Source: Myxococcales bacterium (GTDB lineage: Bacteria; UBA10199; 2-02-FULL-44-16; JAAZCA01). From it: 28,103 nucleotides of DNA. A program made the position numbers and the translations under genes. The stretch spans positions 1-28,103 of the forward strand of contig JAAZCA010000010.1 in assembly GCA_012513515.1 (NCBI GenBank). The letters run 5' to 3'. Positions 106 to 28,103 of this stretch are shown here, in pieces (position 1 is the stretch's first letter; every line of letters starts with the position of its first letter). The notes below the pieces were generated by a model. The model did no database searches and had not been told where the DNA came from. It worked only from the letters and a program-made list of their open reading frames with translations.

Positions 106-843
106 TCAGATTTCGCCGACCGTTATACAGATCTGATGCGTATCATCCGGGCTGACCAGCACGCCACCCTCCTCCTCGCAGTCAGCTATACTGAGGGTAA
201 AAACATCCCACGGGTTGGCGCAGTAGCGCCTACCGCAGGCGTCTCTGTCAAAGGAGAGACACACCTCCTCGCCGGAGCAGGCTGAATCTCTATCGCATGA
301 GTCCTGCGAAGGATCTACACCTATATGCGAATAGGCAACGCATTGGGAATACATGCACAGAGAGGCAGAGGGAGCGGTGCAATTGGAGGTGTATTCGCAG
401 GGAAGCAGTATCTCAATGTCAGCTGTAACCTCCCCGGAGGATTTGGAAAGGTCGCTCTGTAGCGTTATGCTGAGAAGCCTCACCGAAACCCGCAGCTTCA
501 GGTAGGAACCCGCCGTTGGAACAGAGTGGGGAGCGGTAAATCGTCCTTCGCCCCCCTCGCATACCAACGCACCAGCGCCGGATGCGACAGGCTGATCATC
601 CGCATCAAGTATTTCACAACCAAAGTCGCTCCGCTTTTCGCCATTGTAGGATACGGAGAATGAAAAGGATTCCCCAAACTTAAGCCTCATAATCCCATCC
701 GAACCAAAGGCATCTGAGATCAACAATAATTCCCCGCCGCCGCTCGGGAGTTCGGTATCGCTATTAGAGGTAGAGGCGCCGCCACAAGAGGAGATCGCCA
801 AAACGGCCGCCAGGAAAAGAACGAGATAAAATTTGATTTTCAT
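106..843 (-). CDS. Cysteine-rich lipoprotein of unknown function
   Basis: This 245-residue protein begins with a lipoprotein signal: a basic start (MKIK), a hydrophobic stretch, and the lipobox ISSC with the lipid-modified Cys at residue 20. The middle is beta-rich, with no domain I recognise. The C-terminal third holds most of the 14 cysteines in closely spaced pairs (for example DSCDRDSAC and DACGRRYC), as in disulfide-stabilised secreted modules of myxobacterial-type lipoproteins. A purine-rich RBS (GAAGGGGG) precedes the ATG. The stop lies 24 bp from the inferred IS end, so the gene appears intact, although insertion could have altered its 3' flank. It is probably anchored in the outer membrane or periplasm. 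Function is unknown. Confidence 0.75.
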   Translation of the reverse strand: MKIKFYLVLFLAAVLAISSCGGASTSNSDTELPSGGGELLLISDAFGSDGIMRLKFGESFSFSVSYNGEKRSDFGCEILDADDQPVASGAGALVCEGGEGRFTAPHSVPTAGSYLKLRVSVRLLSITLQSDLSKSSGEVTADIEILLPCEYTSNCTAPSASLCMYSQCVAYSHIGVDPSQDSCDRDSACSGEEVCLSFDRDACGRRYCANPWDVFTLSIADCEEEGGVLVSPDDTHQICITVGEI

Positions 844-1061: not shown

Positions 1062-1535
1062 ATGAAGCGAAAGAGATCACAACCCAGCAGCATCGCTTCC
1101 ATAATCGGCAAAAACGCCAGGAAGATGAATATCGAAAGGCGAATGGACATTTACAGGCTCACCAAGGCGTGGCCTGAAATAGTCGGTCCAGCGATCTGCG
1201 CCCATACATCTCCCGAAAGACTCCTCGGTAAAACACTCCTGGTTCGCGTCGATGGATCCTCATGGATGAACGAGCTCGTGTATTTTAAAAAAGAAATCAC
1301 AAAAAAAATCGGGGCGCGCATCCCCGAACTAAAAATACAGGATCTAAAATTTGAGATCGGCGAGATCAGGAGAATGTCGTCCGAGAAAAATTCGGAGGAG
1401 AATGCCTCAAGGGAAAGAAATCTCACGGAGGAGGAACTCGACTTTATCAAAATCGCAGCCGATGAGATATCAGATCCAGAAACAAAGAGCATCGCCGAAT
1501 CGGCCATGAAGCGAAGCTTTAAGAGGATGCGCTAG
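1062..1535 (+). CDS. dciA: DUF721/DciA family protein (replicative helicase-associated)
   Basis: This 157-residue protein has the DUF721 layout: a basic N-terminus, then about residues 8-100 with the characteristic W-x-E-I-V-G-P stretch (TKAWPEIVGPAICAHTSP), the L-V-R-V-D-x-S-S-W-M-N-E-L element and a downstream K-K-E-I region. DciA is the ancestral bacterial factor that helps load the DnaB replicative helicase onto DNA. The C-terminal 50 residues are charged and probably flexible. The gene stands alone on the plus strand and converges with the trmN6-like gene. Their stop codons share the palindrome CTAG at 1532-1535. The DUF721 family call is strong; the helicase-loading role is carried over from the family. 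Confidence 0.8.
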   Translation: MKRKRSQPSSIASIIGKNARKMNIERRMDIYRLTKAWPEIVGPAICAHTSPERLLGKTLLVRVDGSSWMNELVYFKKEITKKIGARIPELKIQDLKFEIGEIRRMSSEKNSEENASRERNLTEEELDFIKIAADEISDPETKSIAESAMKRSFKRMR

Positions 1536-2149
1536 CCGATTCGTTTCGAATACTGCGCCATGAAGATGCCATCCAAAGAGTCGTCATCGCGATTCAATTC
1601 AAAACCATATTTTGCAGCTATGCGATCCAATTCACCCCTCCGGGAGTTGATAAATACGATCGAAAATTTTCCGCCCCCTGAAAGGACAATTCTAGCCGAA
1701 GCCACCAGATCCTCGATAGTTCCATTCAGCTCATGCCTCGCAGCGGCCCTCTGAGGATCAGGGGAAAGCCGCCCGCTAAAAGCCCTGTGGAACGGAGGGT
1801 TTGCGATGAGGTGGTCAAATCTTTCCCTATTTTTAAGGGCAAATTCTCTAAAGTCCCCGCACACGCACGAAATGATTTTATCGAGGCCATTAGCTGAAAC
1901 ATTCCCCTTCATGATATCAAAAAGCGATTTCTGTATTTCGACACACGAAAAAGATAATGGCTTGCTCCTCGCCGCCAATAAAATAGAAATTACACCCACC
2001 CCGGCGCCAAATTCCACTACCCTTTCCCCATCACGAAGTTCTACGAATTTAGCGAGAGCAAGGGAGTCCATGCCATAGCGATAGCCTCTCAGCGGTTGAC
2101 GGATCTCAACGTCAGAGCTTTCAAAATATTCCGAGGTGGTTTCGATCAT
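1532..2149 (-). CDS. tRNA1(Val) A37 N6-methyltransferase-like SAM enzyme
   Basis: This 205-residue class I SAM-dependent methyltransferase resembles TrmN6/YfiC, which methylates N6 of adenine 37 in tRNA-Val. The N-terminal QPLRGYRYGMDSLAL (about 18-32) matches the family's opening before motif I. Motif I is VVEFGAGVGVISILLAA (about 44-60), and the catalytic NPPF tetrapeptide for adenine N6-methylation is at 117-120 (IANPPFHR). The length suits the family. It is the last gene of the minus-strand train, starting 1 nt after the tsaC stop with only a weak RBS, so its translation is probably coupled to tsaC. The exact RNA substrate is inferred; NPPF also occurs in other N6-adenine and glutamine methyltransferases. 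Confidence 0.75.
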   Translation of the reverse strand: MIETTSEYFESSDVEIRQPLRGYRYGMDSLALAKFVELRDGERVVEFGAGVGVISILLAARSKPLSFSCVEIQKSLFDIMKGNVSANGLDKIISCVCGDFREFALKNRERFDHLIANPPFHRAFSGRLSPDPQRAAARHELNGTIEDLVASARIVLSGGGKFSIVFINSRRGELDRIAAKYGFELNRDDDSLDGIFMAQYSKRIG

Positions 2150-2150
2150 T

Positions 2151-2786
2151 TTAGTTTTGGAAACATCTTATCACTTCGTCCGCTGAAATTGCGCCTTCAC
2201 GTATAATCCTCATGGACTCATCTGCAATATCAACTACTGTCGATCCACGAGATGGCTCGCATTCGCCGCCGTCGACTATGCATGGCAGCTTTTCGCCGAA
2301 GTATTTTCGCACGTGCTTTACGGAAAGAGATGGAGGAAACCCCGACAGGTTGGCGCTTGTCGTTGTAATCGGCCCGCCAAAGGATTCCACCAGCGCGGCC
2401 GCTACCGGATGTGACGAAACCCTTATGCCGATCTTCCCTGTGTTTGTGACAAATCCCTTCGGGATTATGTCGGAAACGGGAAACAGGATAGTAAGCGGAC
2501 CCGGCCAGTATTTTCGCATGAGAGGCAAAGTCCGGTCGGGGACGAAAGCCACTACCGTCCGCAACATCTTGAGATCTGCGACCAGAATCGAAATCGGCAA
2601 ACCGTAGTCGCGCGACTTGAGGTCGTAGATCCTTTTGACCGCTTTCCTGCTAAGCGCGTCAGCCCCGAGCCCGTATATCGTCTCAGTCGGATAGGCTATA
2701 ACCTGGCCCGACTTCAAAAACTCGACAGCCCTTGAAATCTCATTTCGATCGGGATGTCTCGAATCTATGCTTATTATCTCGGTCAT
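2151..2786 (-). CDS. tsaC: L-threonylcarbamoyladenylate synthase (TsaC/YrdC/Sua5 family)
   Basis: This 211-residue YrdC-fold enzyme makes threonylcarbamoyl-AMP from threonine, bicarbonate and ATP. This is the first step of the t6A37 modification on ANN-decoding tRNAs. Visible family motifs are YPTETIYGLGADA (about 32-44), the K-S-R element of the nucleotide pocket, KYWPGPLTILFP and TTTSANLSG, then GSTVVD near the end. The length fits the short TsaC form without the extra Sua5 C-terminal domain. It sits 2 nt after purE and 1 nt before the trmN6-like gene, placing two tRNA-modification genes at the distal end of the purine operon. No tsaB, tsaD or tsaE is in the window. Confidence 0.9.
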   Translation of the reverse strand: MTEIISIDSRHPDRNEISRAVEFLKSGQVIAYPTETIYGLGADALSRKAVKRIYDLKSRDYGLPISILVADLKMLRTVVAFVPDRTLPLMRKYWPGPLTILFPVSDIIPKGFVTNTGKIGIRVSSHPVAAALVESFGGPITTTSANLSGFPPSLSVKHVRKYFGEKLPCIVDGGECEPSRGSTVVDIADESMRIIREGAISADEVIRCFQN

Positions 2787-2788
2787 AT

Positions 2789-3283
2789 TTATGAATTCAA
2801 ATTTTTGTCGGCGGCTTCAACTCCGTCGGCCATGGATTTCTTGTACGCAGTCAATTTTTCAGCAAGCGACTTATCGGAAAGAGCTATGATCTGAGCGGCA
2901 AGAACTGCCGCATTCTTGGCGCCAGTCTTGCCTATGGTCACGGTCGCCACCGGCACCCCTCCCGGCATCTGCACTGTGGCGATAAGCGAATCGAGTCCGC
3001 CTAGCGAAGAACCTTCAAGCGGAACACCTATGATCGGAAGTATGGTGTGCGCAGCAAGGTTTCCTGCCAGGTGGGCGGCATAACCTGCGCCGGCGATGAT
3101 CACCTTGACGCCATCAGAAGCTGCGGAAGAAGCCAGCTTTTCGACCTTTGCCGGCGTCCTATGAGCGGAAGCTATCGACATCCTGCATTCTATTCCAAGC
3201 TCGTTTAGGAGTTTTCTCGACTCCTCCATCACTGGAAAATCGCTGGAGCTGCCCATAACTACAAGAACTTTCGCATTAGCCAT
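2789..3283 (-). CDS. purE: 5-(carboxyamino)imidazole ribonucleotide mutase (PurE)
   Basis: This 164-residue PurE converts N5-CAIR to CAIR in de novo purine synthesis. Motifs in order are [12 protein letters not shown] (nucleotide/phosphate site), SIASAHRTP with the catalytic His, [11 protein letters not shown], and [13 protein letters not shown] followed by [12 protein letters not shown]. The length is typical of the single-domain bacterial enzyme. The GSSSD/SAHRTP pattern suggests the class I mutase. That class normally needs PurK to supply N5-CAIR, but no purK is adjacent, so it must be elsewhere or CO2 is used directly. It is the next gene after purD, 3 nt away, in the alr-to-trmN6 train. 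Confidence 0.95.
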
Positions 3284-3286
3284 CCT

Positions 3287-4558
3287 TCACCCCTTTATGG
3301 ATTTACTTCCTATATCTTTCCTGAAAAATCCCCCCTCGAATGAAATCTTAGAAACTGCATCATACACATTTTTTATCGCACTGCCCGCATCGCTTCCGAG
3401 GGCGGTGACGCCGAGCACCCTGCCGCCATTGGTAGTGACATCGCCATCGACGAGCTTAGTGCCGGCGTGGAATACGAAGGTATCGGGAAGATCTCCAGCT
3501 TCATCGAGGCCTGATATCACCGCCCCTTTTCTGCAGTCGCCGGGATACCCCTGCGCAGCCATAACTACGCAAACGGCGTGCCTCGGATCCCAAGTCATTG
3601 AAACTTTATCGAGATCACCGGTGATGGCTGCATCGAAAATTTCCACTATGTCGGTCTTCAGTCTCATCAAAAGCGCCTGCGTCTCCGGATCTCCAAAACG
3701 GACGTTGTACTCCAGCACCTTGGCATCATCACCGTCTATCATCAAACCGGCATAGAGTACGCCGACAAAGGGCCTCCCCTCGGTGACCATGCCGCGGGAG
3801 GTCGGCAATATAATTTTTTCCATCACCTTTTCGACCATTTTTCCGGTCAAGACTCCGGCGGGCGATATAGCCCCCATCCCTCCTGTATTGGGACCAAGGT
3901 CACCATCGTAGGCGGCCTTATGATCCTGTGAACCGTCAAGTGGAAGTACGTGGTTGCCGTCGCATATCGCTATGAAGGAGGCTTCGACGCCGCGGAGAAA
4001 TTCCTCGATAATAATTCTTTTGCCGGACGACCCGAACTTCGCAGCGACCATCATATCATCAACCGCACGCGAAGCCTCGTCGATATTCCGACAAATGACC
4101 ACACCTTTCCCGGAAGCGAGACCATCCGCCTTTACCACCGCTGGAAATGAAAAATTTAGAAGAAATCTTTTAGCTTCCTGTGGATCGGTGAAGCTCTCTG
4201 CCCTTGCAGTTGGAATATTATAGCGAACACAGAAATCCTTCGCAAACACCTTGGAGCTCTCCAGCTCTGCAGCCTCCCTGGTCGGTCCGAATATCTTCAG
4301 CCCGGCTCGTTTGAATGCGTCAACTATTCCAGCGGAGAGGGGCGCCTCAGGGCCGACCACCGTCATCCCTATTTTTTTTGATTTGGCAAAGGACAAAAGG
4401 GCTTGGATATCATCGGCGGCTATTTCCACACATTCAGCTATTTTAGATATGCCGGGATTGCCCGGAGCGCAGTATATCCTTCCGGCCCTGCTCGACTGGC
4501 TTATTTTCCAAACCAATGCGTGTTCACGACCCCCGCCGCCGACTACAAGTATGTCCAT
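3287..4558 (-). CDS. purD: Phosphoribosylamine-glycine ligase (GAR synthetase)
   Basis: This 423-residue ATP-grasp ligase joins glycine to phosphoribosylamine, giving GAR, the second step of de novo purine synthesis. It opens with the Rossmann-like MDILVVGGGGREHALVW, then VVGPEAPLSAGIVD. The ATP-grasp core shows KADGLASGKGVVI and EEFLRGVEASFIAICDG. The substrate segment SQDHKAAYDGDLGPNTGGMG and the metal-binding EYNVRFGDPETQ follow, and the C-terminal domain is present. The length is full for the family. A strong GGGAGG RBS lies 6 nt upstream of the ATG. It follows the MopE-like gene by 49 bp and precedes purE by 3 bp on the minus strand. Confidence 0.97.
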   Translation of the reverse strand: MDILVVGGGGREHALVWKISQSSRAGRIYCAPGNPGISKIAECVEIAADDIQALLSFAKSKKIGMTVVGPEAPLSAGIVDAFKRAGLKIFGPTREAAELESSKVFAKDFCVRYNIPTARAESFTDPQEAKRFLLNFSFPAVVKADGLASGKGVVICRNIDEASRAVDDMMVAAKFGSSGKRIIIEEFLRGVEASFIAICDGNHVLPLDGSQDHKAAYDGDLGPNTGGMGAISPAGVLTGKMVEKVMEKIILPTSRGMVTEGRPFVGVLYAGLMIDGDDAKVLEYNVRFGDPETQALLMRLKTDIVEIFDAAITGDLDKVSMTWDPRHAVCVVMAAQGYPGDCRKGAVISGLDEAGDLPDTFVFHAGTKLVDGDVTTNGGRVLGVTALGSDAGSAIKNVYDAVSKISFEGGFFRKDIGSKSIKG

Positions 4559-4607
4559 CCAAAACCTCCCAGAGAGCAGCGTCTTAAATCATCTGCCGCG
4601 GGTAAAA

Positions 4608-7600
4608 TCAATCCGAAACAGAACTGGTCTCGCTTATCTTTTCCACCGAGCCGTCCTGGCGCAAGACGATGCTCGAAGTACTCACGAGTCCTCCCGGATC
4701 CGAGACCTCGACAAATATGGTTACCGGCCAGACCCCAACAGCGCTCCTGTCACCCTTCACTGAGAACTTGAGCTTGCCAGGGGAGATTCCATCTAGCCAT
4801 GAATCGAGGGAGCCCCCATGCTTGGCTTTTATCTTTGCCCTGTAGCTCAGTTTGTCGGATGAAGGATCCTCAAACGCCAGATCGAGAACGCCTCTTTCCC
4901 CGTTAAAAACGATATCACCTACCGAGCCCGATGGCGGCTCATTGGTATTCCAGTAGAAAAATCCCATCTCACCTATTTTAGATTTCCCTTTTTTTATTTC
5001 GAAGGCAGCGAAAAGATCCATCCCCCCGAAATCTTTAAGCGGAAGGTTAGCAAACGCATGAGGCCTATCGAACGACATCTTCTCTCCCGACACAATTCCG
5101 TCAGCACCTGACTCAGGCACCACAGGCGGAATGCGCATGGGCCTTAAAAGCTGAGAGCCATCAGATGATGCCATTACTGCAGCCGCCTCTACCCCGGATT
5201 TAGTTCCATAGATTAAAACCGGGCTTCTGTCCGTCTGCCTCGGAAACTCGCTCACGAAGGTAATCTCCCCGTCACCGCCTGACAAAAGATTACCCGCCTT
5301 TGATATGCGCATCTTCTTCGACTTCGAATCCGGCAGGAGAAATACCGATTCGCCATTATCCATGATAGCAATTGCCTTTTTATCCTCTGAATCGGTTAAT
5401 TGAATCAACGCGACTACTGAGCTGTGCCGTTTGCCAAGGTCATCATGCCAGCATGAAAAATTTTCATCATCCGCGCCGCATTGGCCCGCGACGAGCACCC
5501 CATGAGCTTGAGCAACGATAACGATACCGGCCGCCCCGACGGATATGAATCCAGCATCGGCCTTCGCATCCAGAAATTTTACAGGGACGAAGCGATGAGA
5601 AAATGTTCCATCCGAACGCCTGGCGAAAAGATCCATCCCCAATAAATGCCTGTCTTTCTTTAAAATCGATCCACTTGGAATCGAGCAACTGACGAGGCCT
5701 GCAAAGGAATATGGAGACTTGGCCACCGCAGCTATATCGAAAATCCTTTCAACAGCGCAGGAGATTTCGCCCTTCGCGTCATTTACCATTCTAAAATCCT
5801 GCACAAAGATATTGGAATCCTTGAGAAGGCATCCGCCCTCGCCCGCAGCGGAAGAAGGAATTTGCGTCGCTATTTTGGGGAATAAAAGATAGGAACGCCT
5901 GGTTGAAGCCACCACATCCACTATATCCCCTGTGGCCAGGATCTTGTGAGGAGTCGCCCCGTCACGAGCTCGGCAACTCTTGAATTCTATTATCGCTCCC
6001 GGACTTATCCCTTTGGCCTGAATAGCGGAAAGACCGCCGACTTCCCCATTTGAGCCCGCGATAATCAGCATCGCCTGATCCCTGCGACGAGGAGAGAGCA
6101 CCAGGGAAGAATGAACATTCTGCCATGGCAAAATCGCTGCTCTGGTCTTTCCAGCATTATAGAGACGCTGACTCGAAGGATATGCGCCCTCCGATACCCC
6201 CGAAATTTCCGCGTCGATACCCGCAACGAAGGTATCCCCATAATCGCAGTAGTTCGGTATTCCATCTCCATCATCATCCTCTGCATCGCGTGGATTTAGC
6301 GCTACACATACAGGATACTCCGCATCCCCAAGGCAGCGCTTCATCCCCCTGATTATGCAGGTGCCGACAGCCACAGGACAGTGCTCGTTCAGCGAAGCGA
6401 TATCATCGACGACTCCATTGCAATCATCGTCGACACCGGGATTGGAGCATGTCTCCACTGCAGGATTTTTGGGAATGCAGCTCAATTTTTCCCCTTTGAA
6501 GCAGTTTTCGACTGTGACCTCACACGCTCCGACTCCACAAGTTGTCTGGCCAAACCCCTCGTCAATATCGCCGTCACAATCATCATCTATGAGATTACAT
6601 TCCTCGCTCTTTGGGAAATTCACCTGAACGCAGGTGATCGTTCCTTCCGGCTGACATAGAAACTTTCCATTTGCGCAAGCGCCAAGCTTTCCATCTACGA
6701 TGCAGTCTTCACCAGGCGAATGCTTCAAAACTCCGCAACCTCCGCAGGCATTTTCCACTCCACCCTCTATAGCGTTGTGATAACATCCCCTGACGTGGTC
6801 GCAAAAATCGGCCGTGCACTTGTTTCCATCGTCACACGAAAGCTGCGTGCCTCCGACGCATACCCCCCCAATGCAGATATCATCGGTAGTGCATGAATTC
6901 ATATCATCGCACGGCACAACACCCAAAACCGGAGGATGGGAACACACGCCCATCTTGCAGATATCCTGCGTGCAAATGTTGCCATCGCTGGAGCAAGCAA
7001 TTCCATCGGTGAGTTTAGGGTCTATCGCACACTCCATCCCGGAAGCGGAATCGTCGCTGCAAGCCCACACGCCCATCGAGCACTCGTCCCCCTCCTGCCC
7101 TTGGCATCTTTCACCCGGAATTCCCGGCAGTTCACCACATCCCCCACATACGTTGAGAACCCCCTCATCGATCTGGCCATCGCAATCGTCGTCCACTCCG
7201 TTGCAAACCTCCGGCGACGGTTCCACCAAAGGGGCATTGCACACGAGCTCACCCTCGGACTTCCCGCAGATGAGAAATCCCTCACGACGGCATGCGCCGA
7301 GAAGGCCGTTATCACATGGATCTCCAAGCCCCTCTGCATCGGAATCGACAACTCCGTCGCAATCGTCATCTATCCCGTTTCCGCAAAGTTCTGGACCCGG
7401 CTCCCCAGCCACCGCATCGCATATCAGTGACAGCTTATCTTCCGAGCAGACCATCTTGCCATCGCGCTTGCAGGCCCCTATTCCTGCTGAACATGTCGAA
7501 CCGAGGGCTTCAAATCCTTCATCTATCCGGCCATCACAATCATTGTCTATTTTATCACCGCAAAGTTCTTCGCCGGGCATGCCCGGAATACACTCGACTT

Positions 7601-8285
7601 CCCTACCATCTATGCACGCAGAAACTTCTGTACGACATGCTCCGACCCCGCAAACGACAGTGCCAAGCGCGTCATCTATAAGGCCGTTGCAGTCATCGTC
7701 CTTGCCATTACAGATCTCTCTTGAAGGCGGTTTTGGCTCCGCATCGCAAAACGATTCAAGTCCAGAGCTGCTGCACTTCAGCTTGCCTTGCACAGCACAT
7801 TCGCCAAGCCCCGCGGTACAAAATCCCCCTACATTGAAACCTTCATCTATGAGCCCGTTGCAGTTGTCATCCTTGCCGTTGCATCGCTCGATAGCGTCCG
7901 GATATACCGTTGCATCCCTGTCGTTACAATCGCCGCCGCAGGTGGTAAATCCATCCCCATCCTTATCAAAACCCTCATCTACCCTGCCATCGCAGTTATC
8001 ATCCTCACCGTTGCAAATTTCCATCCTTTCACCGGGATTAATCGCAGAGCGGCATACGGATTTTTCGGCTCCGCACTCGAATATTCCACGACGGCAGATA
8101 CCATGCAGACCAGTGTCACACGGCTGATTACACGCGATGCATGAGTTTTTCCCCTCATCAAAGCCATAGCCGGGCGCACACTTTTGAGCTGTTTCCTCCT
8201 GTGCAAAGGAGTGCTGTGAAAGGATTGTTGCGGCCAGAATGACGACCGCCGCCAGAACCGAATGTAAGTTTTGCCTTCGCAACAT
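4608..8285 (-). CDS. Large secreted MopE-like Cys/Asp-repeat protein
   Basis: This 1225-residue protein starts with a Sec signal peptide (basic LRR, hydrophobic core, likely cleavage after SFA near residue 28). Residues about 35-620 are a Cys/Asp/Gly-rich region holding eight MopE-type motifs of the form C-N-G-x-D-D-x-C-D-G-x-x-D-E (the first, EICNGEDDNCDGRVDEGF, near 89-106). Also present are one DGDGF...GDCNDRDATVYPDA unit, CDDGNKCT-type repeats and a DDDGDGIPNYCD stretch like thrombospondin type-3 calcium sites. MopE motifs occur in a copper-binding surface protein of Methylococcus and widely in Deltaproteobacteria, where metal or calcium binding is suspected. The C-terminal 600 residues are Cys-poor, possibly a beta-propeller followed by an Ig-like domain; I do not recognise a specific family. 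It lies between purH (27 bp) and purD (49 bp), an unexpected place. The role is unknown. Confidence 0.85.
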   Translation of the reverse strand: MLRRQNLHSVLAAVVILAATILSQHSFAQEETAQKCAPGYGFDEGKNSCIACNQPCDTGLHGICRRGIFECGAEKSVCRSAINPGERMEICNGEDDNCDGRVDEGFDKDGDGFTTCGGDCNDRDATVYPDAIERCNGKDDNCNGLIDEGFNVGGFCTAGLGECAVQGKLKCSSSGLESFCDAEPKPPSREICNGKDDDCNGLIDDALGTVVCGVGACRTEVSACIDGREVECIPGMPGEELCGDKIDNDCDGRIDEGFEALGSTCSAGIGACKRDGKMVCSEDKLSLICDAVAGEPGPELCGNGIDDDCDGVVDSDAEGLGDPCDNGLLGACRREGFLICGKSEGELVCNAPLVEPSPEVCNGVDDDCDGQIDEGVLNVCGGCGELPGIPGERCQGQEGDECSMGVWACSDDSASGMECAIDPKLTDGIACSSDGNICTQDICKMGVCSHPPVLGVVPCDDMNSCTTDDICIGGVCVGGTQLSCDDGNKCTADFCDHVRGCYHNAIEGGVENACGGCGVLKHSPGEDCIVDGKLGACANGKFLCQPEGTITCVQVNFPKSEECNLIDDDCDGDIDEGFGQTTCGVGACEVTVENCFKGEKLSCIPKNPAVETCSNPGVDDDCNGVVDDIASLNEHCPVAVGTCIIRGMKRCLGDAEYPVCVALNPRDAEDDDGDGIPNYCDYGDTFVAGIDAEISGVSEGAYPSSQRLYNAGKTRAAILPWQNVHSSLVLSPRRRDQAMLIIAGSNGEVGGLSAIQAKGISPGAIIEFKSCRARDGATPHKILATGDIVDVVASTRRSYLLFPKIATQIPSSAAGEGGCLLKDSNIFVQDFRMVNDAKGEISCAVERIFDIAAVAKSPYSFAGLVSCSIPSGSILKKDRHLLGMDLFARRSDGTFSHRFVPVKFLDAKADAGFISVGAAGIVIVAQAHGVLVAGQCGADDENFSCWHDDLGKRHSSVVALIQLTDSEDKKAIAIMDNGESVFLLPDSKSKKMRISKAGNLLSGGDGEITFVSEFPRQTDRSPVLIYGTKSGVEAAAVMASSDGSQLLRPMRIPPVVPESGADGIVSGEKMSFDRPHAFANLPLKDFGGMDLFAAFEIKKGKSKIGEMGFFYWNTNEPPSGSVGDIVFNGERGVLDLAFEDPSSDKLSYRAKIKAKHGGSLDSWLDGISPGKLKFSVKGDRSAVGVWPVTIFVEVSDPGGLVSTSSIVLRQDGSVEKISETSSVSD

Positions 8286-8312
8286 CGGCTCCCCATCATG
8301 AATTAGAAGTGT

Positions 8313-9890
8313 TCAGTGCCTAAAATGCCTAACCCCTGTAAAGAGCATCGCCATGTCATGTTCGTCCGCGGCAGCGATAACTTCCTCGTCGCGTATCGAA
8401 CCGCCGGGCTGCACTATCGCACGCGCTCCCGCGGCAGCGGCAGTATCCACTCCGTCCCTGAATGGGAAAAATGCGTCGGAAGCGATAACCGAACCTGCAA
8501 GCGGACTCATCGCCTTCATCACGGCAATCTTTGACGAATCTACGCGACTCATCTGTCCGGCGCCTATGCCTATCGTTCTATCTTTCCCTGCAAAGACTAT
8601 CGCGTTGGATTTTACGTGCTTGCAAATTCTCCAGGCGAACTCAAGGGCGGCCACTTCATCGGCGGTCGGAGGCCGTTTGGTCACCACCTTAGCGGCTGAC
8701 ACTATCTCATCCGAAACATCCCTCTCCTGGACCAGCATCCCTCCGCGAACATCGCGCAAATGCCACCCTTTCGGTTCTGGAGAGCTTTCCGCAAGTGACG
8801 GAAGGGCCAGCAAACAAAGCTTTTTCTTCTTTGAAAGAATTACTTTGGAGCTCTCATCGAACGAAGGAGCCACGACGACCTCAAAAAAACTTTCAGCGAT
8901 AATCTTCGCCGCGGTTTCATCGACAGACTTGGTCAGACCTATTATTCCACCGAATGAAGAAGTGGGATCGCAGGCGATAGCTTTAGCCAGGGCATCGGAG
9001 ACGGAACTCTCTGAAATCGCAGCACCGCATGGATTGGCGTGTTTGACAACCACCGCCGCAAATGGCGCATACCTAAATTCCAGAAGCATCCCCAGAACCG
9101 CATCGGCATCCATTATATTATTGTATGAAAGCTCCTTCCCCTGAAGCTGCTTTGCATCTGCGATAGAGAAAGGGTGGACCAGCCCGCGCCTTTTGTAAAA
9201 AGCCGCGTTCTGATGCGGATTCTCGCCGTATCGCAGGCCGGAGACCAGATCATAGGTCATGCCTATACTGGTTGGAATCTCCGTGCGCTGTTTGGCATCG
9301 TTCCAAGCGGTGAGGTAGTTTATGATCGCAGAGTCGTATGACGCCGTCGTTGTGAATGCCTTTTTTGCGAGCGCAAAGAGTCTCTCCCGGGAAAGTTCGC
9401 CGTCGCCGGAATCCATCTCCGAAACTATTGCTGCGTAATCCGCGGGGTCGGTGACGACAGCCACATCCTGATGATTTTTGGCTGCCGCCCTTATCATGGT
9501 GGGACCACCTATATCTATATTCTCTATCGCCTCTTCGAACTTGCATCCCGGTTTGGCGATGGTCGCCTCGAAAGGATAGAGGTTTACCACCATCATATCG
9601 ATGTATCCGATGCCGTTGGCCTCAAGCTCCATGGAATGTTTGTTGTTTTCCCTTATAGCGAGAACTCCTCCATGAATCTTCGGATGAAGAGTTTTCAGCC
9701 TGCCGTCCAGAATCTCGGGGGATCCTGTGTAATCGGAAACTTCTTTGACAGGTATCCCTTCCTTGCTGAGTACGGAGTAGGTGCCGCCCGTCGAGAGGAT
9801 CTCGACGCCCATCTTCGATAGAGATCTGGCAAATTCAACTATGCCAGTTTTGTCATACACGCTCATCAACGCTCTTTTTATCTTGGCCAC
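8313..9890 (-). CDS. purH: Bifunctional AICAR transformylase/IMP cyclohydrolase
   Basis: This 525-residue PurH catalyses the last two steps of IMP synthesis. The N-terminal cyclohydrolase domain (about 1-145) shows LMSVYDKTGIVEFA, ILSTGGT, DGRLKTLHPKIHGG and NLYPFE. The transformylase domain shows LRYGENPHQNAAFY, the catalytic Lys-His in VVVKHANPCGAA, SSFGGIIGL and the canonical ending MLFTGVRHFRH. It is full length. The start is GTG at 9888-9890, chosen because a GGGAG RBS lies about 7 nt upstream and the protein then begins exactly where the family does. It lies 34 bp after mlaD and 27 bp before the MopE-like gene. Confidence 0.97.
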   Translation of the reverse strand: MAKIKRALMSVYDKTGIVEFARSLSKMGVEILSTGGTYSVLSKEGIPVKEVSDYTGSPEILDGRLKTLHPKIHGGVLAIRENNKHSMELEANGIGYIDMMVVNLYPFEATIAKPGCKFEEAIENIDIGGPTMIRAAAKNHQDVAVVTDPADYAAIVSEMDSGDGELSRERLFALAKKAFTTTASYDSAIINYLTAWNDAKQRTEIPTSIGMTYDLVSGLRYGENPHQNAAFYKRRGLVHPFSIADAKQLQGKELSYNNIMDADAVLGMLLEFRYAPFAAVVVKHANPCGAAISESSVSDALAKAIACDPTSSFGGIIGLTKSVDETAAKIIAESFFEVVVAPSFDESSKVILSKKKKLCLLALPSLAESSPEPKGWHLRDVRGGMLVQERDVSDEIVSAAKVVTKRPPTADEVAALEFAWRICKHVKSNAIVFAGKDRTIGIGAGQMSRVDSSKIAVMKAMSPLAGSVIASDAFFPFRDGVDTAAAAGARAIVQPGGSIRDEEVIAAADEHDMAMLFTGVRHFRH

Positions 9891-9924
9891 CTGAATCTCC
9901 CTTGAATTTTTCTTGTAGTCGAGA

Positions 9925-11295
9925 TCACTTCACAAGGCTGCTGGCACCGAGATACTTCTTGAAATCGTCATCCACGAATTTGAAACCAGCGCCGAGAAAC
10001 CATTCGGGTCTCGGCCCGTTCGTTCTTATGATATCATCTGCACCGCCTGAAACATATATGTTGGGCGTAATATTCAGATCTGCGCTGGCTTTTAGATGAG
10101 GTTTCTCGCCAAATTGTGTTGAAAAATCGTACGCGGAAAATGAAAGCTGAATCGGCCCCTGAAAATAATCTATGCCGAAGCCTCCGCTGGATTCGATAAG
10201 CCCTCCCCTGATCCTGAAGTCATAGAAGCTCTTGGCGAGCTGCGCGGAAAACCTGATTTTATCGCGGTCGATCGTCGCATTATGTGTGGTTACGGTAGTC
10301 GACCTCCCGCCGGTGCTTATAGTGGTCGTCGTTTCAGAGTATCTCGGACGCGGGTCCGGATCGGCGACTAAGCCGAGAAGCAGCGCCTTGTCAGGCGAAG
10401 GCCTGAGTGCGAGATCGACGTAGCTCTTAAAGTCCCTGCTCTGAGTGAGATATTCCGCCTTGTAACCGATCTCCATCTCGAGCGATCTGAATCCTCCAAG
10501 CGTTTCATTCAGGTTGTCGACAGCCTTGTTGAGCTTGTTGACCGTTTCATCATCGTTCACGAGTTTTCCGATCGTCCCCTCACCTGCGTCTATCTTTCGA
10601 GTGATGGAGGCGATATTTTCCATCGACTCCTCAACATCTACCCTTCCCTTTGCGACTATTTCACGAAGCTGGTCGGTCATCTCCGCAAGATTCATCGCAA
10701 CCCTATCGATATTCTGCTGATTCTGAATCGTTATGTCGCGAATCGACCTGGTGAACTCCTCCAGATTGGAGACTATCCTGTTGATAGGATAGTCCTGATT
10801 GTCACCGATCATCGTCTTGAGCGAGGAGGTCATCTGTTTGACATCTGTCGCGATGGAAGAGAACTGGCCGACCAATGAGTTTATATCCCCGGTCCGCCCG
10901 GTAAATTCTATTTGGGAATCCTTGGAAAGAAGGGGCGCCCCCTGCGAGCCAGGAATTATTTCAACGTATGTGTCGCCTAGAAAGCCCCTGGTCCTGAGAA
11001 CTGCCTGCGAATCGGCCGGGAGCCTGACCGCCTTGTCCATCAGGAGCAGCACCTTTGCTCGCCTGGAATCTAGAAGCTCGACGTTGCGCACCACACCGAC
11101 CTTCACCCCGGCCAGCTCAACCGGAGCCTTCACTTTGAGGCCGGTCGCATTGTCGAACACAGCGGTGAGATCGTAGCCACCGTAACCGCTGACAGAGGTT
11201 TTCTCGCTTACGCGGATAGTAGCCCATGCGAGCACGAGGATGACCGCGACAGCGAATATTCCAACCTTAACTTCCAACGAGAGATTCCTCACCAT
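9925..11295 (-). CDS. mlaD: MlaD/MCE-domain lipid transport protein with long C-terminal extension
   Basis: This 456-residue protein has an N-terminal membrane anchor (about 11-29, VGIFAVAVILVLAWATI). An MCE domain follows (about 38-118) with LTAVFDNATGLKVKAPVELAGV and the typical RGFLGDTYVEI ending. Residues about 140-280 form a long heptad-like helical segment (SLEEFTRSI, NLAEMTDQL, NIASITRKI). The last 170 residues look like amphipathic beta strands (FSAQLAKSFYDFRIRGG, ending EWFLGAGFKFVDDD), suggesting an outer-membrane-barrel-like extension. MCE proteins form hexamers that pass phospholipid between membranes together with MlaE and MlaF. E. coli MlaD is only about 180 residues, so this is a long form. 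It is 5 bp after mlaF. MlaB and MlaC are not in the window. Confidence 0.88.
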   Translation of the reverse strand: MVRNLSLEVKVGIFAVAVILVLAWATIRVSEKTSVSGYGGYDLTAVFDNATGLKVKAPVELAGVKVGVVRNVELLDSRRAKVLLLMDKAVRLPADSQAVLRTRGFLGDTYVEIIPGSQGAPLLSKDSQIEFTGRTGDINSLVGQFSSIATDVKQMTSSLKTMIGDNQDYPINRIVSNLEEFTRSIRDITIQNQQNIDRVAMNLAEMTDQLREIVAKGRVDVEESMENIASITRKIDAGEGTIGKLVNDDETVNKLNKAVDNLNETLGGFRSLEMEIGYKAEYLTQSRDFKSYVDLALRPSPDKALLLGLVADPDPRPRYSETTTTISTGGRSTTVTTHNATIDRDKIRFSAQLAKSFYDFRIRGGLIESSGGFGIDYFQGPIQLSFSAYDFSTQFGEKPHLKASADLNITPNIYVSGGADDIIRTNGPRPEWFLGAGFKFVDDDFKKYLGASSLVK

Positions 11296-11300
11296 TCCCC

Positions 11301-12041
11301 CTAGCCTGCACGCCTAGTTCCTACACTGAGAAATTCCACAACCGCCGGGTTCTTGGAACGCCTCATCTCATCGGGCGTTCCCGATTCGATTATCCTTCCA
11401 TCGTGTATCATCGCTATCTGATCGGCTATGCGAAATGCCGAATCAATATCATGACTTATAACGACCGAAGTCACGCGAAGTTCTTGTTGCATGGAGAAAA
11501 TCAGGTTGTCAATAGCAAGCGTCATAATCGGATCCAGCCCCGTCGTAGGCTCGTCGTACAGAATTATCGATGGTTCCAGAGCTATAGCCCTGGCAAGACC
11601 CACCCTTTTCCTCATCCCGCCTGAAAGCTCGGACGGCATCTTGTGCTCTATCCCTGGCAAACCGACCAAGCGAAGTTTATCTTTAACGATAGAATCGACA
11701 TCGGGAAGTCTTCCTCCCCTGTACCTCTCTACTATGGGAAAGGCGATATTGTCGTAGACGCTCATGGAATCAAAGAGCGCAGCGTTCTGAAAAAGCATTC
11801 CGAACCTTCGCCTGAATTCGTTCAGTTTATCGCTGCTGAGAGATCCGAGATCGCATCCATCAACCGTCACCGTTCCGCGATCAGGCCTAAGAAGCCCTAT
11901 TATGTGGCGAAGCAAGACCGTTTTGCCTGAACCGGAAGAGCCGATGATCACGGTAACCTTCCCCTCAGGGATGGATAGCGACAGCCCTTTAAGGACCTGC
12001 TGTGATCCGAAGGATTTGTATATTTCCTTTATCTCAATCAT
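11301..12041 (-). CDS. mlaF: ABC transporter ATPase of the Mla phospholipid system
   Basis: This 246-residue ATPase has Walker A GSSGSGKT (34-41), the ABC signature LSGGMRKRVGLARAIALEP (about 139-157), Walker B with ILYDEPTTGLDP (about 160-171) and the switch His in VVISHD. The GGMRKRV variant of the signature is characteristic of MlaF/Ttg2A importers. It would energise lipid movement through the MlaE permease. It lies 19 bp after mlaE and 5 bp before mlaD, the usual E-F-D gene order. Gene order and sequence agree, so the subfamily call is firm. Confidence 0.93.
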   Translation of the reverse strand: MIEIKEIYKSFGSQQVLKGLSLSIPEGKVTVIIGSSGSGKTVLLRHIIGLLRPDRGTVTVDGCDLGSLSSDKLNEFRRRFGMLFQNAALFDSMSVYDNIAFPIVERYRGGRLPDVDSIVKDKLRLVGLPGIEHKMPSELSGGMRKRVGLARAIALEPSIILYDEPTTGLDPIMTLAIDNLIFSMQQELRVTSVVISHDIDSAFRIADQIAMIHDGRIIESGTPDEMRRSKNPAVVEFLSVGTRRAG

Positions 12042-12060
12042 ATTCTCGCTTCGCTCCAGG

Positions 12061-12879
12061 CTATTTCGAAATATATTCTATTATCCACGTAGTCAGGAAA
12101 TAATCTGTCACAAGGACGGTAACGGCCGAAAAGACGACCGCACGAGTGGTCGCTCGCCCAACGCCTTTAGCGCCACCCCTCGTATTAAACCCCATATAAC
12201 AGCTGATGGCGGCGATCAAAAACCCGAATATCGCCGCTTTTATGAGCCCCCCGTATATGTCGTCGGCATCGACGTAATAATACATCCTTCCAAAAAAAGG
12301 CCCCGCGTCTATCCCGAGCAGATATATACTCACGATGTAAGAGCCTACCACGCCTATGTAATTGTAGACCATCGTCAACATGGGAACCATGACCGAACAC
12401 GCTATTATCCTGGGAACGACCAGGTACTGAAGCGGGCTGACAGCCATCGTCTCGAGGGCATCGATTTGCTCGGTGACGCGCATCGTTCCGAGCTCAGCCG
12501 CCATGGACGAACAGGCTCGAGCAGTTATCATTATGGCTGTAAAGACAGGAGCTATCTCCCTTGCGAGCGACATCGCAACCGTCGCACCCACCATGCTCTC
12601 CATGTTGAAAAGAGCATACACTTTGCCGGTCTGAAGGGCAAAAACCGCCCCCGTAAAAAATGAGGTGAGAGCTATGATCCAAATGGATTTGACGCCGACG
12701 AACTCCATTTGTTTCAAAACCTGATCGGCTCTAAATGGCTTCCGAACAGACCACTGAAGGGAGTCCCACACAAAACGGCACCAGTCGCCAAGGCCTGCGC
12801 ACATTGAAATGAGGCAAGAGCCTGTCCTCTCCAGAAAGGAAAAAGAAAAATCCAGCATATGAGCTATAATTCTTTGCAT
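12061..12879 (-). CDS. mlaE: MlaE-family ABC permease
   Basis: This 272-residue inner-membrane permease of the Mla/Ttg2B family has about five hydrophobic segments and the conserved cytoplasmic coupling stretch ELGTMRVTEQIDALETMAV (about 143-161), which contacts the ATPase. It also shows TARACSSMAAELG and FGFLIAAISCYMGFNTRGGAKGVG. Family length is about 260. The chosen ATG at 12877-12879 has GGTGAG 5 nt upstream and overlaps the end of alr by 16 bp, pointing to translational coupling. A second in-frame ATG seven codons on has a poorer RBS. With mlaF and mlaD it forms the core transporter. Confidence 0.92.
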   Translation of the reverse strand: MQRIIAHMLDFSFSFLERTGSCLISMCAGLGDWCRFVWDSLQWSVRKPFRADQVLKQMEFVGVKSIWIIALTSFFTGAVFALQTGKVYALFNMESMVGATVAMSLAREIAPVFTAIMITARACSSMAAELGTMRVTEQIDALETMAVSPLQYLVVPRIIACSVMVPMLTMVYNYIGVVGSYIVSIYLLGIDAGPFFGRMYYYVDADDIYGGLIKAAIFGFLIAAISCYMGFNTRGGAKGVGRATTRAVVFSAVTVLVTDYFLTTWIIEYISK

Positions 12880-14039
12880 GGATTCTCACCTGAATAAACG
12901 CGCGGCATACGCTTGGATATTCCACAAAGGATCTCGTACGGAATAGTTTCGGCCCACCTGGCCAAATCATTCATCGATATGCAGTCGCTGCCTTGACTGC
13001 CCATCAAAACCACCTCGTCATGAATTTCAACCCCTTCGATATCCGTAACATCGACTATTGTCATATCCATGGTAACCCTCCCGACCACCGGCGCACGAAC
13101 CCCGCGAATGAGCACGCTCGCCTTTCCGGTGAGCGCCCACGGATAGCCATCGGCATAACCTATGGGCACTATCGCCAGGCGGGTTTTCCTCTGAGTGACG
13201 AATATTCCGGAATAACTGACGCGCGCCCCTTCAGGAACATGCTTGAGGAGCACTACTCGACTCGCAAGCCCCATCACGGGAAGCAGCCGATCGCTGGAGA
13301 AACTGGCATCATCCATGCCTCCAAAAAGGGTAAGGCCGGGACGCACCCACACCTCGTCGGCACCGGGAATCTCCACCCCCCTTGAATTCGTTATTCCCTG
13401 GCTGTTGGCCATGTGCCATATTTTAACCCTGCCAACGCTCGCCTCTATTCGCTGCTTGCATTGAAGGAATATATCAAACTGCTCGCGCGACAATGGGCCA
13501 TCGTCGGCATCCATGAAATGGGTCATGACACCCTCAAGATAGAGGTTCTGCGAAGAGGCCAGCCTTGAAAGGACGGAATCAAGCGACTCCGGCCGGACCC
13601 CTAGCCTGCTCATTCCGGTATCGATCTTTAGATGAACGGGGATTTTTTTCCCGAATTCCTTGGCGTTATCTTCGAGCGGAGCTATAACCCCGTGCGAGTG
13701 TATGACCGGAGTAAGATCGCACTCGACCATCACCTTCGAAGCTGGCGCCCCAGCTCCTAAAAGTCCGCCCATCACCAAAATTTGTTTTTTAATTCCGTTT
13801 TTTCGAAGCTCGAGCCCCTCTTCCACCGTCGCCACACCAAAGGCCCTGGCCCCGTCATTTTCTAGCACCTTAGCCACAGGCAAGGCACCGTGACCATACG
13901 CATCGGCCTTGATCATCACCATTATTTCGGTTCCGGACGGAAGCGATCGTCGGAGCAGTCCAAAATTGTACCTGAGGGCATCAAGATCCACAGTTGCCCA
14001 TGTAGGTCTGAACGTGGGAATTTCATTTCTCTGAATCAT
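12864..14039 (-). CDS. alr: Alanine racemase
   Basis: This 391-residue PLP enzyme interconverts L- and D-alanine to supply D-Ala for peptidoglycan. The PLP lysine is K44 in MVMIKADAYGHGA, and the second catalytic base is Y276 in ARVSYSGIFVT. KIDTGMSRLGVRP, GYADGYPWALTG and GRVTMDMTIVDVT are all family signatures. Length is normal (350-390), with a short N-terminal extension before the usual PTWATVDLDAL opening. It is the first gene of the minus-strand train, with a good promoter about 40-65 bp upstream, and its end overlaps mlaE by 16 bp. Confidence 0.96.
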   Translation of the reverse strand: MIQRNEIPTFRPTWATVDLDALRYNFGLLRRSLPSGTEIMVMIKADAYGHGALPVAKVLENDGARAFGVATVEEGLELRKNGIKKQILVMGGLLGAGAPASKVMVECDLTPVIHSHGVIAPLEDNAKEFGKKIPVHLKIDTGMSRLGVRPESLDSVLSRLASSQNLYLEGVMTHFMDADDGPLSREQFDIFLQCKQRIEASVGRVKIWHMANSQGITNSRGVEIPGADEVWVRPGLTLFGGMDDASFSSDRLLPVMGLASRVVLLKHVPEGARVSYSGIFVTQRKTRLAIVPIGYADGYPWALTGKASVLIRGVRAPVVGRVTMDMTIVDVTDIEGVEIHDEVVLMGSQGSDCISMNDLARWAETIPYEILCGISKRMPRVYSGENPCKEL

Positions 14040-16475: not shown

Positions 16476-16486
16476 CAAACCCACTG

Positions 16487-16576
16487 TCGCTAGGGGTGCG
16501 GTAAGCTGAGAATCACGCGCAAAGGCGCGGGATACCCTCGGAACCTGAACCGGGTAATGCCGGCGAAGGGAAGCGA
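16487..16576 (+). ncRNA. TPP riboswitch (THI element)
   Basis: The conserved THI-box blocks appear in order: TAGGGGTGCG (16491-16500), CTGAGA (16506-16511), ACCCTCGGAACCTGA (16534-16548), then CCGGGTAATGCCGGCG and AAGGGAAG. Stem P1 pairs TCGCT (16487-16491) with AGCGA (16572-16576). P2 pairs GGGT with ACCC, and an optional hairpin CGCGC-AAAG-GCGCG sits between CTGAGA and ACCC. The element senses thiamin pyrophosphate and is followed by an intrinsic terminator and thiS, so it should repress the thi operon when TPP is plentiful. Confidence 0.95.
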
Positions 16577-16590
16577 ATGAAGCAAAATCG

Positions 16591-25568: not shown

Positions 25569-28103
25569 TTGATCCTGTCTTCAACAGAGAAAGCAAAAAG
25601 GTTTCGAAGGATGGGGGCTTGGATACTTGTCCCCCTCCTCGCCCTCTTGATCTCTGCCTGCGGAAGCGAGCAAAAATCCATATCAGAACAGCCTGGCGAT
25701 GGTTGGATAGCAGACACGAAAGGGCCATTAACAAAAGAAAACGGTGGAATTCCCGGATGCGCGGATCTTTGTACGATGTTTGAAATAACGGATCCAAGTG
25801 ACTGCGATGATCTCCTCTTCGTGGATTCAGAAGGAAACTGTGCCTACGATTCAGGATCAGGCTGGACAGGATCGCTTGACAGTTGTGAAGATATCAAAGT
25901 CGCCTACTGCGAGGCGGCCGCTTCTGGCGGCTTCCCCTGCCACACCGAAGGAGGGGCATGTAAGGACAACTGCGGCAGTAGCGATAATTGTGAGGATGGC
26001 ACCATATGCTACTTTGGCAGATGTCTAGAACCCGAGTCGGTTGGTTATTATCCTGATGCGCCCTGCAGCGAAAGTAGTGATTGCACGGGTGATTACGAAG
26101 GTTTTACCTGCATTGGAATCTTACCACCTGATTGCAGTGGCGCATGTCTTGATATGGAGACGTTCTTTTCCGAGTCAAAAGGCGCCCCTCAAGATTCAAC
26201 TTCCTGTGAAGCTCTTGAAGGAACCTGGAATGAAGAGATGGGGATATGCCTCACCCCGGATATAGTGACATGCATGGGCGATGGCGGAGGAGAATCTGGT
26301 CCTCCTGAATGTAATTCAACATTAACCAACGACTGTTTCCAATATAACAACACGAGCAAGGAAGTATGCGAAACATATTACTGGGAAGCCTTTGATGGGC
26401 AGGGAAATTACGATGTAAGAAACTGCCGTTACTGGGATGGAACATGTGGAGTTGAAGGTTCTTACGGCCAAGCAAGCACAGCGTGTACAGGCGGAAGCTG
26501 CGGAAACAATATCTGCGAAGCAGGGCTCGGCGAAAACAGCAGTACTTGTAAACAGGATTGTGGAACCGGCGGCGGATACACCTGCCCAAACGGCATATGC
26601 GAAAGCTGGGCCGGCGAAAATAATAGCAATTGTCCGGCCGATTGCGGGGGTAGCGGATATACCTGTCCAAACGGCATATGCGAAAGCTGGGCCGGCGAAA
26701 ATAATAGCAATTGTCCGGCCGACTGCGGAGGAGGAGGGCCGCCCAGTTGCAACCCAGCTCCCGACTGCTGCGATGGAGGGGGTTATGCGTCAGGAGGCAG
26801 GTGCTACTCAGATAGCGAATGCACAATCGAATGCGACGAGGAAAACATCTCATGTGAGATGTTGTGTAATATCGGTGGCTACTCAGAAGAAGACGGCGAA
26901 GGCTGGCAACTGGAATGTTCAGAAGAATTTTCAAATGATTATTATTGCCAATGGAGCGGATCCGAATGGGTACACGAGCCTGATGACAACGCAGACTGCA
27001 CGATGGTAAGCAACCCCTTAAAGCACAATATTTGCCTTGCCATGGCAGCAGGCGATGAGCCTTACTGTGTATGGAATTCCAATCTCAACCAATGCCTAAA
27101 CGCTGGCGGCGGCGGTGAGAACACCGCACCGTCAGCAAGTAACGTTTCTGTAACTGGCACCATGAAAGCCGAAGAGACGGCCACTTGTTCTTACACATAC
27201 TCTGATGCTGATGGCGACGTCGAAAGTGGAAGCACATATGAGTGGTACAAAAGCGATACTGCGAATTTATTAGACGCAACAATCATAGAGGGCCAAACGT
27301 CTAACACTATTTCAATCATTGAAAGTTATAGAGGAAAATTTTTATTCTGCTCTGTAACTCCTTCCGATGGCGTTGATTTTGGAAATCAAGCTACCAGCTC
27401 GGCATCGAGTCGGGTGAACACCCCTCCGGTTGCAACCAACCTTTCAATAACCGGCAACCTCTTTGTAGGATCGACGCTAACCTGCAACTATGACTACTTT
27501 GACGCGGATAACAATCCGGAGTCAGGAACAGAAATTGTTTGGGCAAGGCATTCATCTCAAGAAATTGAGGGTGAACCCGATGGGTTTATGGAAGATGTCG
27601 ATGGAACCTACACACTGGTGGAAGCCGATATCGGCAAATATATTTTCTGCGCGGTAATACCGAATGATGGCATTGAGGAGGGAAATACGGTTGTTAAAGT
27701 CACGGACTCAACCGTGCAGGATGTTTCAGCCCCATCCTCTCCTTCGGTTTCAGCGACCACACCCACCTCCGATTCTACTCCTACATGGAGCTGGTCGACG
27801 GGGGGCGGAGGAAACGGGACATTCAGATATCAGCTAGACGGCGAGGAGGGCCCTTGGACGGAGACAACCGATACGAGCTACACCCCGACCTCTCCCCTGG
27901 ACGACGGCACACATACGCTGTATGTTCAGGAGCGCAACGGGGTCGGCAACTGGTCTGAAAGCGGATCGTTCACTGTAACGGTCGACACGGTTCCCCCTAC
28001 TTCCCAGAACACGGCATTTGCGACTTCTATCTCTGTAAAGGGCGGGGCCACCGTCACCATCACCGGCACAGGAGATTCTGCGGATGCGATCTGGTTCGCT
28101 CCT
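25569..28103 (+). CDS. Large Cys-rich repeat lipoprotein, partial (open at window end)
   Basis: One frame stays open from 25509 to the window end. From TTG at 25569 it gives 845 codons without a stop. The TTG is preferred because AGGGAGGGGG lies just upstream and the signal gains a basic region (KAKRFRR). The internal ATG at 25611 has GAAGG touching it and no spacer. The lipobox is ISAC (Cys at residue 31). Residues about 60-510 are very Cys-rich, including three 27-residue units of the form C-x-N-x-I-C-E-(x)-G-E-N...C-x-x-D-C (309-389). Two Ig-like repeats of about 99 residues follow, starting NTAPSASN (518) and NTPPVATN (617). A further beta domain (about 718-802) and the start of another reach the edge. 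It is probably a surface-anchored adhesin or binding protein. Its function is unknown and its 3' end is missing. Confidence 0.85.
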   Translation, partial: MILSSTEKAKRFRRMGAWILVPLLALLISACGSEQKSISEQPGDGWIADTKGPLTKENGGIPGCADLCTMFEITDPSDCDDLLFVDSEGNCAYDSGSGWTGSLDSCEDIKVAYCEAAASGGFPCHTEGGACKDNCGSSDNCEDGTICYFGRCLEPESVGYYPDAPCSESSDCTGDYEGFTCIGILPPDCSGACLDMETFFSESKGAPQDSTSCEALEGTWNEEMGICLTPDIVTCMGDGGGESGPPECNSTLTNDCFQYNNTSKEVCETYYWEAFDGQGNYDVRNCRYWDGTCGVEGSYGQASTACTGGSCGNNICEAGLGENSSTCKQDCGTGGGYTCPNGICESWAGENNSNCPADCGGSGYTCPNGICESWAGENNSNCPADCGGGGPPSCNPAPDCCDGGGYASGGRCYSDSECTIECDEENISCEMLCNIGGYSEEDGEGWQLECSEEFSNDYYCQWSGSEWVHEPDDNADCTMVSNPLKHNICLAMAAGDEPYCVWNSNLNQCLNAGGGGENTAPSASNVSVTGTMKAEETATCSYTYSDADGDVESGSTYEWYKSDTANLLDATIIEGQTSNTISIIESYRGKFLFCSVTPSDGVDFGNQATSSASSRVNTPPVATNLSITGNLFVGSTLTCNYDYFDADNNPESGTEIVWARHSSQEIEGEPDGFMEDVDGTYTLVEADIGKYIFCAVIPNDGIEEGNTVVKVTDSTVQDVSAPSSPSVSATTPTSDSTPTWSWSTGGGGNGTFRYQLDGEEGPWTETTDTSYTPTSPLDDGTHTLYVQERNGVGNWSESGSFTVTVDTVPPTSQNTAFATSISVKGGATVTITGTGDSADAIWFAP
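26493..26735 (+). repeat. Three 81-bp tandem repeats inside the right-edge lipoprotein gene
   Basis: Units are 26493-26573 (diverged), 26574-26654 and 26655-26735, each 27 codons. Units 2 and 3 differ at 7 of 81 bases and share an identical 56-base core (26586-26641 and 26667-26722). All differences except the last codon are synonymous. The first unit keeps the cysteine spacing but differs widely. This points to a recent duplication or gene conversion of the last two units. Confidence 0.9.

Follow-up and report, generated by a model that had tools for sequence, protein, structure and literature searches.

A predicted secreted MopE-repeat protein encoded between purH and purD in two related bacterial families

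In the purHD pair, as found for example in E. coli, the two genes share a strand and purH comes first. The locus described here, from a Myxococcales bacterium, has the same order and strand, but a 3.7-kb gene for a predicted secreted protein interrupts the pair. This protein has in common with MopE of Methylococcus capsulatus (PDB 2vov/2vow/2vox; PF11617) a signal peptide, secretion (predicted here) and an acidic, Asp-rich motif; it differs in having eight motif copies with paired cysteines and a propeller/Ig-like head, and in offering no match to the region of the Kyn/His Cu(I) site. The Cu(I) ligands of MopE are Kyn130, His132 and His203, its weaker Cu(II) binding has been placed near the N-terminus, its N-terminal 46 residues are cleaved or unseen in the crystal, and calcium protects it from proteolysis (PMC3423442). 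A further point of reference is provided by the MYXO-CTERM surface proteins of Myxococcota (PMC11980579), whose tripartite plan of a Cys motif, a transmembrane segment and a basic end is shared by tails that we find in two other families of the class (f5 and f15), whereas the protein described here has no tail at all.

The window, meaning the whole analyzed stretch of 28,103 nucleotides, contains the gene in the following setting.

4608..8285, minus strand: MopE-repeat cysteine-rich secreted protein gene (predicted export), 1225 aa, ATG start
8313..9890, minus strand: purH, upstream neighbor (TIGR00355, E=1e-198)
3287..4558, minus strand: purD, downstream neighbor (TIGR00877, E=1.4e-160)
1532..14039, minus strand: ten-gene co-directional run that includes the MopE-repeat gene

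An earlier note on this DNA had described a 1225-residue reading frame on the same strand as purH and purD and 27 and 49 bp away from them, and all of this is confirmed, the gaps being 8286-8312 on the purH side and 4559-4607 on the purD side; the latter is the widest in the run. The genes are tightly spaced on one strand in the order alr-mlaE-mlaF-mlaD-purH-[MopE-repeat gene]-purD-purE-tsaC/sua5-methyltransferase, and the identities of purH, purD and purE are backed by equivalog models. The description of the run as a purine gene train holds for these three genes but leaves out alr, mlaEFD, tsaC/sua5 and the methyltransferase gene, and because the run already holds envelope genes (alr for alanine racemase, mlaEFD for Mla lipid transport), an envelope gene beside purine genes is less odd than it first appears. 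The 1.79-Mb genome yielded no PF11617 locus other than the MopE-repeat gene, whose GC content, at 52.4%, is the same as that of its neighbors, as GC3 likewise is. Two other genes in the window encode cysteine-rich lipoprotein-like proteins: one of 245 aa (106-843, minus strand) lacks any Pfam match, and the other, of 845 aa (25569-28103, plus strand), has repeated NGICESWAGENNSNCPADCGG units and Ig-like domains and is left open-ended by the end of the contig.

The protein itself is divided into four parts.

8202..8285, minus strand: predicted Sec-type signal peptide, residues 1-28 (hydropathy peak at 5-28; cleavage expected after SFA/Q)
6243..8180, minus strand: N-terminal acidic cysteine-rich repeat array, residues ~36-681, with 8 MopE-type motifs and 74 of the 80 cysteines
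5106..6176, minus strand: beta-propeller-like region, residues ~704-1060 (low-confidence model, mean pLDDT 55; homology to class-mates)
4641..5054, minus strand: Ig-like C-terminal domain, residues 1078-1215, with the signature GGxDL ... NxNExP

The N-terminus, MLRRQNLHSVLAAVVILAATILSQHSFA followed by Q, has a hydrophobic core at residues 5-28 and an AxA-type site, in keeping with the signal peptide that had been claimed for it and suggesting, from sequence, that the protein is exported. The PF11617 profile matches eight stretches (E=1.6e-37, 127.9 bits against a gathering cut-off of 27), and a relaxed motif search finds eight sites at residues 91, 135, 192, 242, 301, 361, 563 and 613. The count of eight C-N-G-x-D-D-x-C-D-G motifs given previously thus stands for the relaxed pattern, but the strict form occurs at only two of them (91 and 361), the others being CNG..CNG, CGN/CGD, CNL or CSN variants. 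The pattern is not a product of chance, because orthologues of only 43-47% identity retain all eight motifs in position and almost every one of the 80 cysteines. DxDxDG-like loops are present in the array at residues 107 and 670, an NCBIfam search of the protein returns only a sub-threshold acidic disulfide repeat, and structure prediction of the N-terminal repeats gives a pLDDT of 71 with a pTM of 0.30. An antisense GTG-initiated ORF of 437 aa (6814-8127, plus strand) lies over the cysteine repeats and is most likely a by-product of their codon bias.

Residues 637-1225 are predicted to be all-beta, with propeller matches at Z 14-16 that include integrin alpha and bacterial lectins. The structure prediction that the earlier note had recommended for the C-terminal part yields a propeller-like model of low confidence (mean pLDDT 55). 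The top Foldseek matches (DDB1 and others) were rejected as relatives, as they reflect only the propeller fold, which is a common one. Closer relatives are found within the class, among the 46 genomes that we compared. Six of these (G010, G017, G021, G026, G031 and G036) belong to family f5, and all six encode homologues of the head (hhalign probability 100, E 5e-39) within cysteine-rich proteins of 1.0-2.6 k residues. Unlike the window protein, these f5 proteins are encoded at other genome sites, their cysteine-rich stalks consist mostly of other repeats (DUF4215, myxo_disulf), and most have an anchor-like C-terminus in which a Cys motif is followed by a hydrophobic segment and then by basic residues. 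The Ig-like end with its GGxDL ... NxNExP signature is also present in families f15, f17, f7 and f8, and the window protein matches both the head and the Ig-end profiles of this propeller-Ig head family of the class, as defined in our analysis. Near the f5 head-protein genes there are ORFs that look by eye like homing endonuclease genes (L141:10931-11605, L142:15007-15693 and L144:3765-4514).

The window protein terminates at ...LRQDGSVEKISETSSVSD with no C-terminal hydrophobic segment, and so without the C-terminal Cys motif, transmembrane segment and Arg-rich end; this Cys-TM-basic tail is missing in all four full-length orthologues from the window family and its sister family. The TIGR03901 model for MYXO-CTERM gave no match in 10 genomes, but because the control was silent too, this result carries no information.

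The purH-purD junction was compared across the same 46 genomes, in which the window genome (G000) and G001-G003, representing four genera, form family f1, G004 represents the sister family f2, and f3 is a third family of the order. In all five f1/f2 genomes, which come from related uncultured bacteria, purH and purD enclose a MopE-repeat orthologue of the same orientation, and in each of them it directly precedes purD; in G002 the contig is broken within the gene, with both ends in place. The full-length orthologues are 43-47% identical to the window protein, compared with about 57-65% for purD and 64-69% for purH, and a scan of genome contigs recovered three orthologues, with all other relatives matching by motif only. 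The purH side is more variable, with 27 bp in G000 and 29 bp in G002, a TerC gene in G001 and a 2.1-kb stretch in G004. The G004 junction also contains, between purH and the orthologue, a 310-aa opposite-strand ORF resembling by eye a DNA-binding regulator (L071:8029-8961).

Elsewhere in the class purH and purD are direct neighbors, 7-90 bp apart (G009, G012, G031, G032 and G039), or unrelated genes, some of them on the opposite strand, fill the junction (f3, G010, G014, G017, G019, G024 and G029). Among the junction ORFs of other families are several of 316-407 aa with no Pfam match (L072:5672-6667, L074:7990-9081, L146:1931-3154 and L147:2313-3263). Because purH and purD are elsewhere adjacent or separated by unrelated genes, the comparison argues that the gene was inserted long ago into a permissive junction and then inherited, which bears out the earlier suggestion that the site tolerated an insertion. 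The simplest reading would be that the adjacency of purH and purD is old and that the gene entered once, before f1 and f2 split. Fast-evolving genes seem to have landed in this junction repeatedly. A recent horizontal import was considered and rejected, since GC and GC3 resemble those of the neighbors and orthologues are present in five genera. In a distant family, relatives of the Ig-like end that carry a hydrophobic C-terminal tail lie upstream of purD at distances of 36 bp (G042, family f15, L082:141-857) and 7.6 kb (G033, L080:1545-8510), which may be a coincidence or a trace of older linkage.

Two candidate expression signals flank the gene in the window.

8289..8294, minus strand: Shine-Dalgarno-like GGGGAG before the ATG of the MopE-repeat gene, within the 27-bp purH gap
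4582..4611, minus strand: degenerate purD promoter-like site TTGATT-N18-TTAAGA, overlapping the MopE-repeat stop codon; intact in G001-G004

The GGGGAG site is as expected for read-through from purH. Scans of the window for sigma-70 promoters and terminators returned counts no different from those in shuffled sequence (11 vs 10.6 and 10 vs 11.3), so that no isolating promoter or terminator is shown there, and Rfam places no riboswitch or other RNA element at the junction; its sole match is a TPP element elsewhere in the window (16482-16588, plus strand, RF00059, 66.9 bits), upstream of thiG-thiH-thiC. The purD promoter-like site of the window is 23 bp before the purD ATG. All four relatives (G001-G004) have a TTG(A/C)TT-N18-TATAG(A/G) site just upstream of purD that scores 11-12 of 12; its -10 element precedes the start codon by 46 bp in G004 and by 22-25 bp in the other three. 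The background is roughly one such site in every 10 kb of a single strand, but since the consensus was taken from the same sites before scoring, the enrichment describes them and does not test them independently. In G001 and G003 the MopE-repeat gene also has a promoter-like site of its own, 7-8 bp upstream of its ATG, a leaderless layout seen for 0.21% of ATGs in these loci. As consensus matches, these sites are no proof, but they imply that separate transcription of the gene and of purD is feasible and that sharing one mRNA is not a conserved trait. The layout is suggestive of co-transcription in G000 and G002 and speaks against it in G001, G003 and G004, and the single mRNA previously proposed for purH, the MopE-repeat gene and purD is thus plausible for the window genome, given the spacing, the Shine-Dalgarno-like site and the lack of a detected promoter, but not as a conserved arrangement.

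These data bear on whether the gene is functionally coupled to its neighbors, with the protein co-produced from the purine/envelope operon to keep its level in step with growth rate, and with selection maintaining its position. We regard this as unlikely. Adjacency and orientation are conserved in five of five f1/f2 genomes, the distance from purH is only 27 and 29 bp in G000 and G002, and an Ig-end relative is directly upstream of purD in G042 too; however, the spacing to purH is disrupted by TerC in G001 and by 2.1 kb in G004, promoter-like sites precede the gene (G001/G003) and purD (G001-G004), the same head protein is encoded far from purD in f5, f7, f8 and f17, and purH-purD works without a MopE-repeat gene in most of the class. 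The proposal that expression is tied to growth is without direct support, and a link in function to purine synthesis, while conceivable, lacks support.

Together with the observed reading frame, motifs, orthology, synteny, modular homology and missing tail, these comparisons lead us to favor, as probable though far from certain, a modular exported protein with a calcium-stiffened stalk and a binding head, encoded by an old, inherited junction insertion that is not a sign of joint function with purine synthesis. It is likely a secreted protein of the binding or adhesion type. Following Sec export, the ~640-residue cysteine-rich acidic array would fold into a disulfide-locked stalk, probably stabilized by calcium in the Asp-rich loops, and the propeller-like and Ig-like head carried on it would bind a surface or extracellular partner in the manner of an adhesin or binding protein. 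Since the anchor-like tail of its class relatives is missing, the f1/f2 protein probably stays in the periplasm or is released. Entry of the gene into the purH-purD junction would predate the f1/f2 split, with inheritance ever since. Read-through from an alr-mla-purH mRNA is its probable mode of expression in the window genome, with translation from its own Shine-Dalgarno site. Against this explanation stand the head model, with its pLDDT of 55 and a propeller fold that is common, and the adjacency to purD of the gene in all five f1/f2 genomes and of a relative in G042, which could mean either a benefit or an older shared linkage.

A variant in which the untagged protein is a calcium-dependent sorting or attachment component, held at the surface through a partner lipoprotein or a type II secretion system, appears improbable: relatives bear an anchor-like tail and the window encodes further cysteine-rich lipoprotein-like genes, but no partner was identified and the tail is missing from every full-length f1/f2 orthologue. 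Equally speculative, and doubtful, is the broader scenario in which an undescribed extracellular head shared across the class, made up of a propeller and the GGxDL/NxNExP Ig-like domain, is carried on interchangeable cysteine-rich stalks, and in which loss of the anchor and linkage to purD in one branch gave a shed binding protein made with the growth machinery.

Least probable by a clear distance is a role in copper acquisition like that of Methylococcus MopE, for although the PF11617 motif matches strongly and 2vov, the only solved relative, matches weakly (phmmer, E=0.038, residues 106-145), this match is confined to chain residues 5-44, inside the cleaved or unseen N-terminal segment, the Cu(I) ligands lie outside it, His and Trp are scarce, and the conserved head belongs to another family. 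No homology to the copper site (Kyn/Trp130, His132, His203) was found in the phmmer alignment, which stops at chain residue 44. Of the surface metal-binding, MopE-type character attributed to the protein, the acidic motif is therefore present and the Cu(I)-site region unmatched; the motif region may still bind some metal, because the Cu(II) binding of MopE lies near its N-terminus. Matches to the Pfam family named Cu-binding_MopE are by themselves no ground for calling a protein a copper protein.

The protein that we favor, a calcium-stiffened stalk with a binding head, suggests that there is a family of modular secreted proteins in which a common head is combined with swapped cysteine-rich stalks. 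The purH-purD junction, although part of core metabolism, seems to be a recurrent landing site that, in one lineage, can long keep a 3.7-kb envelope-type gene.
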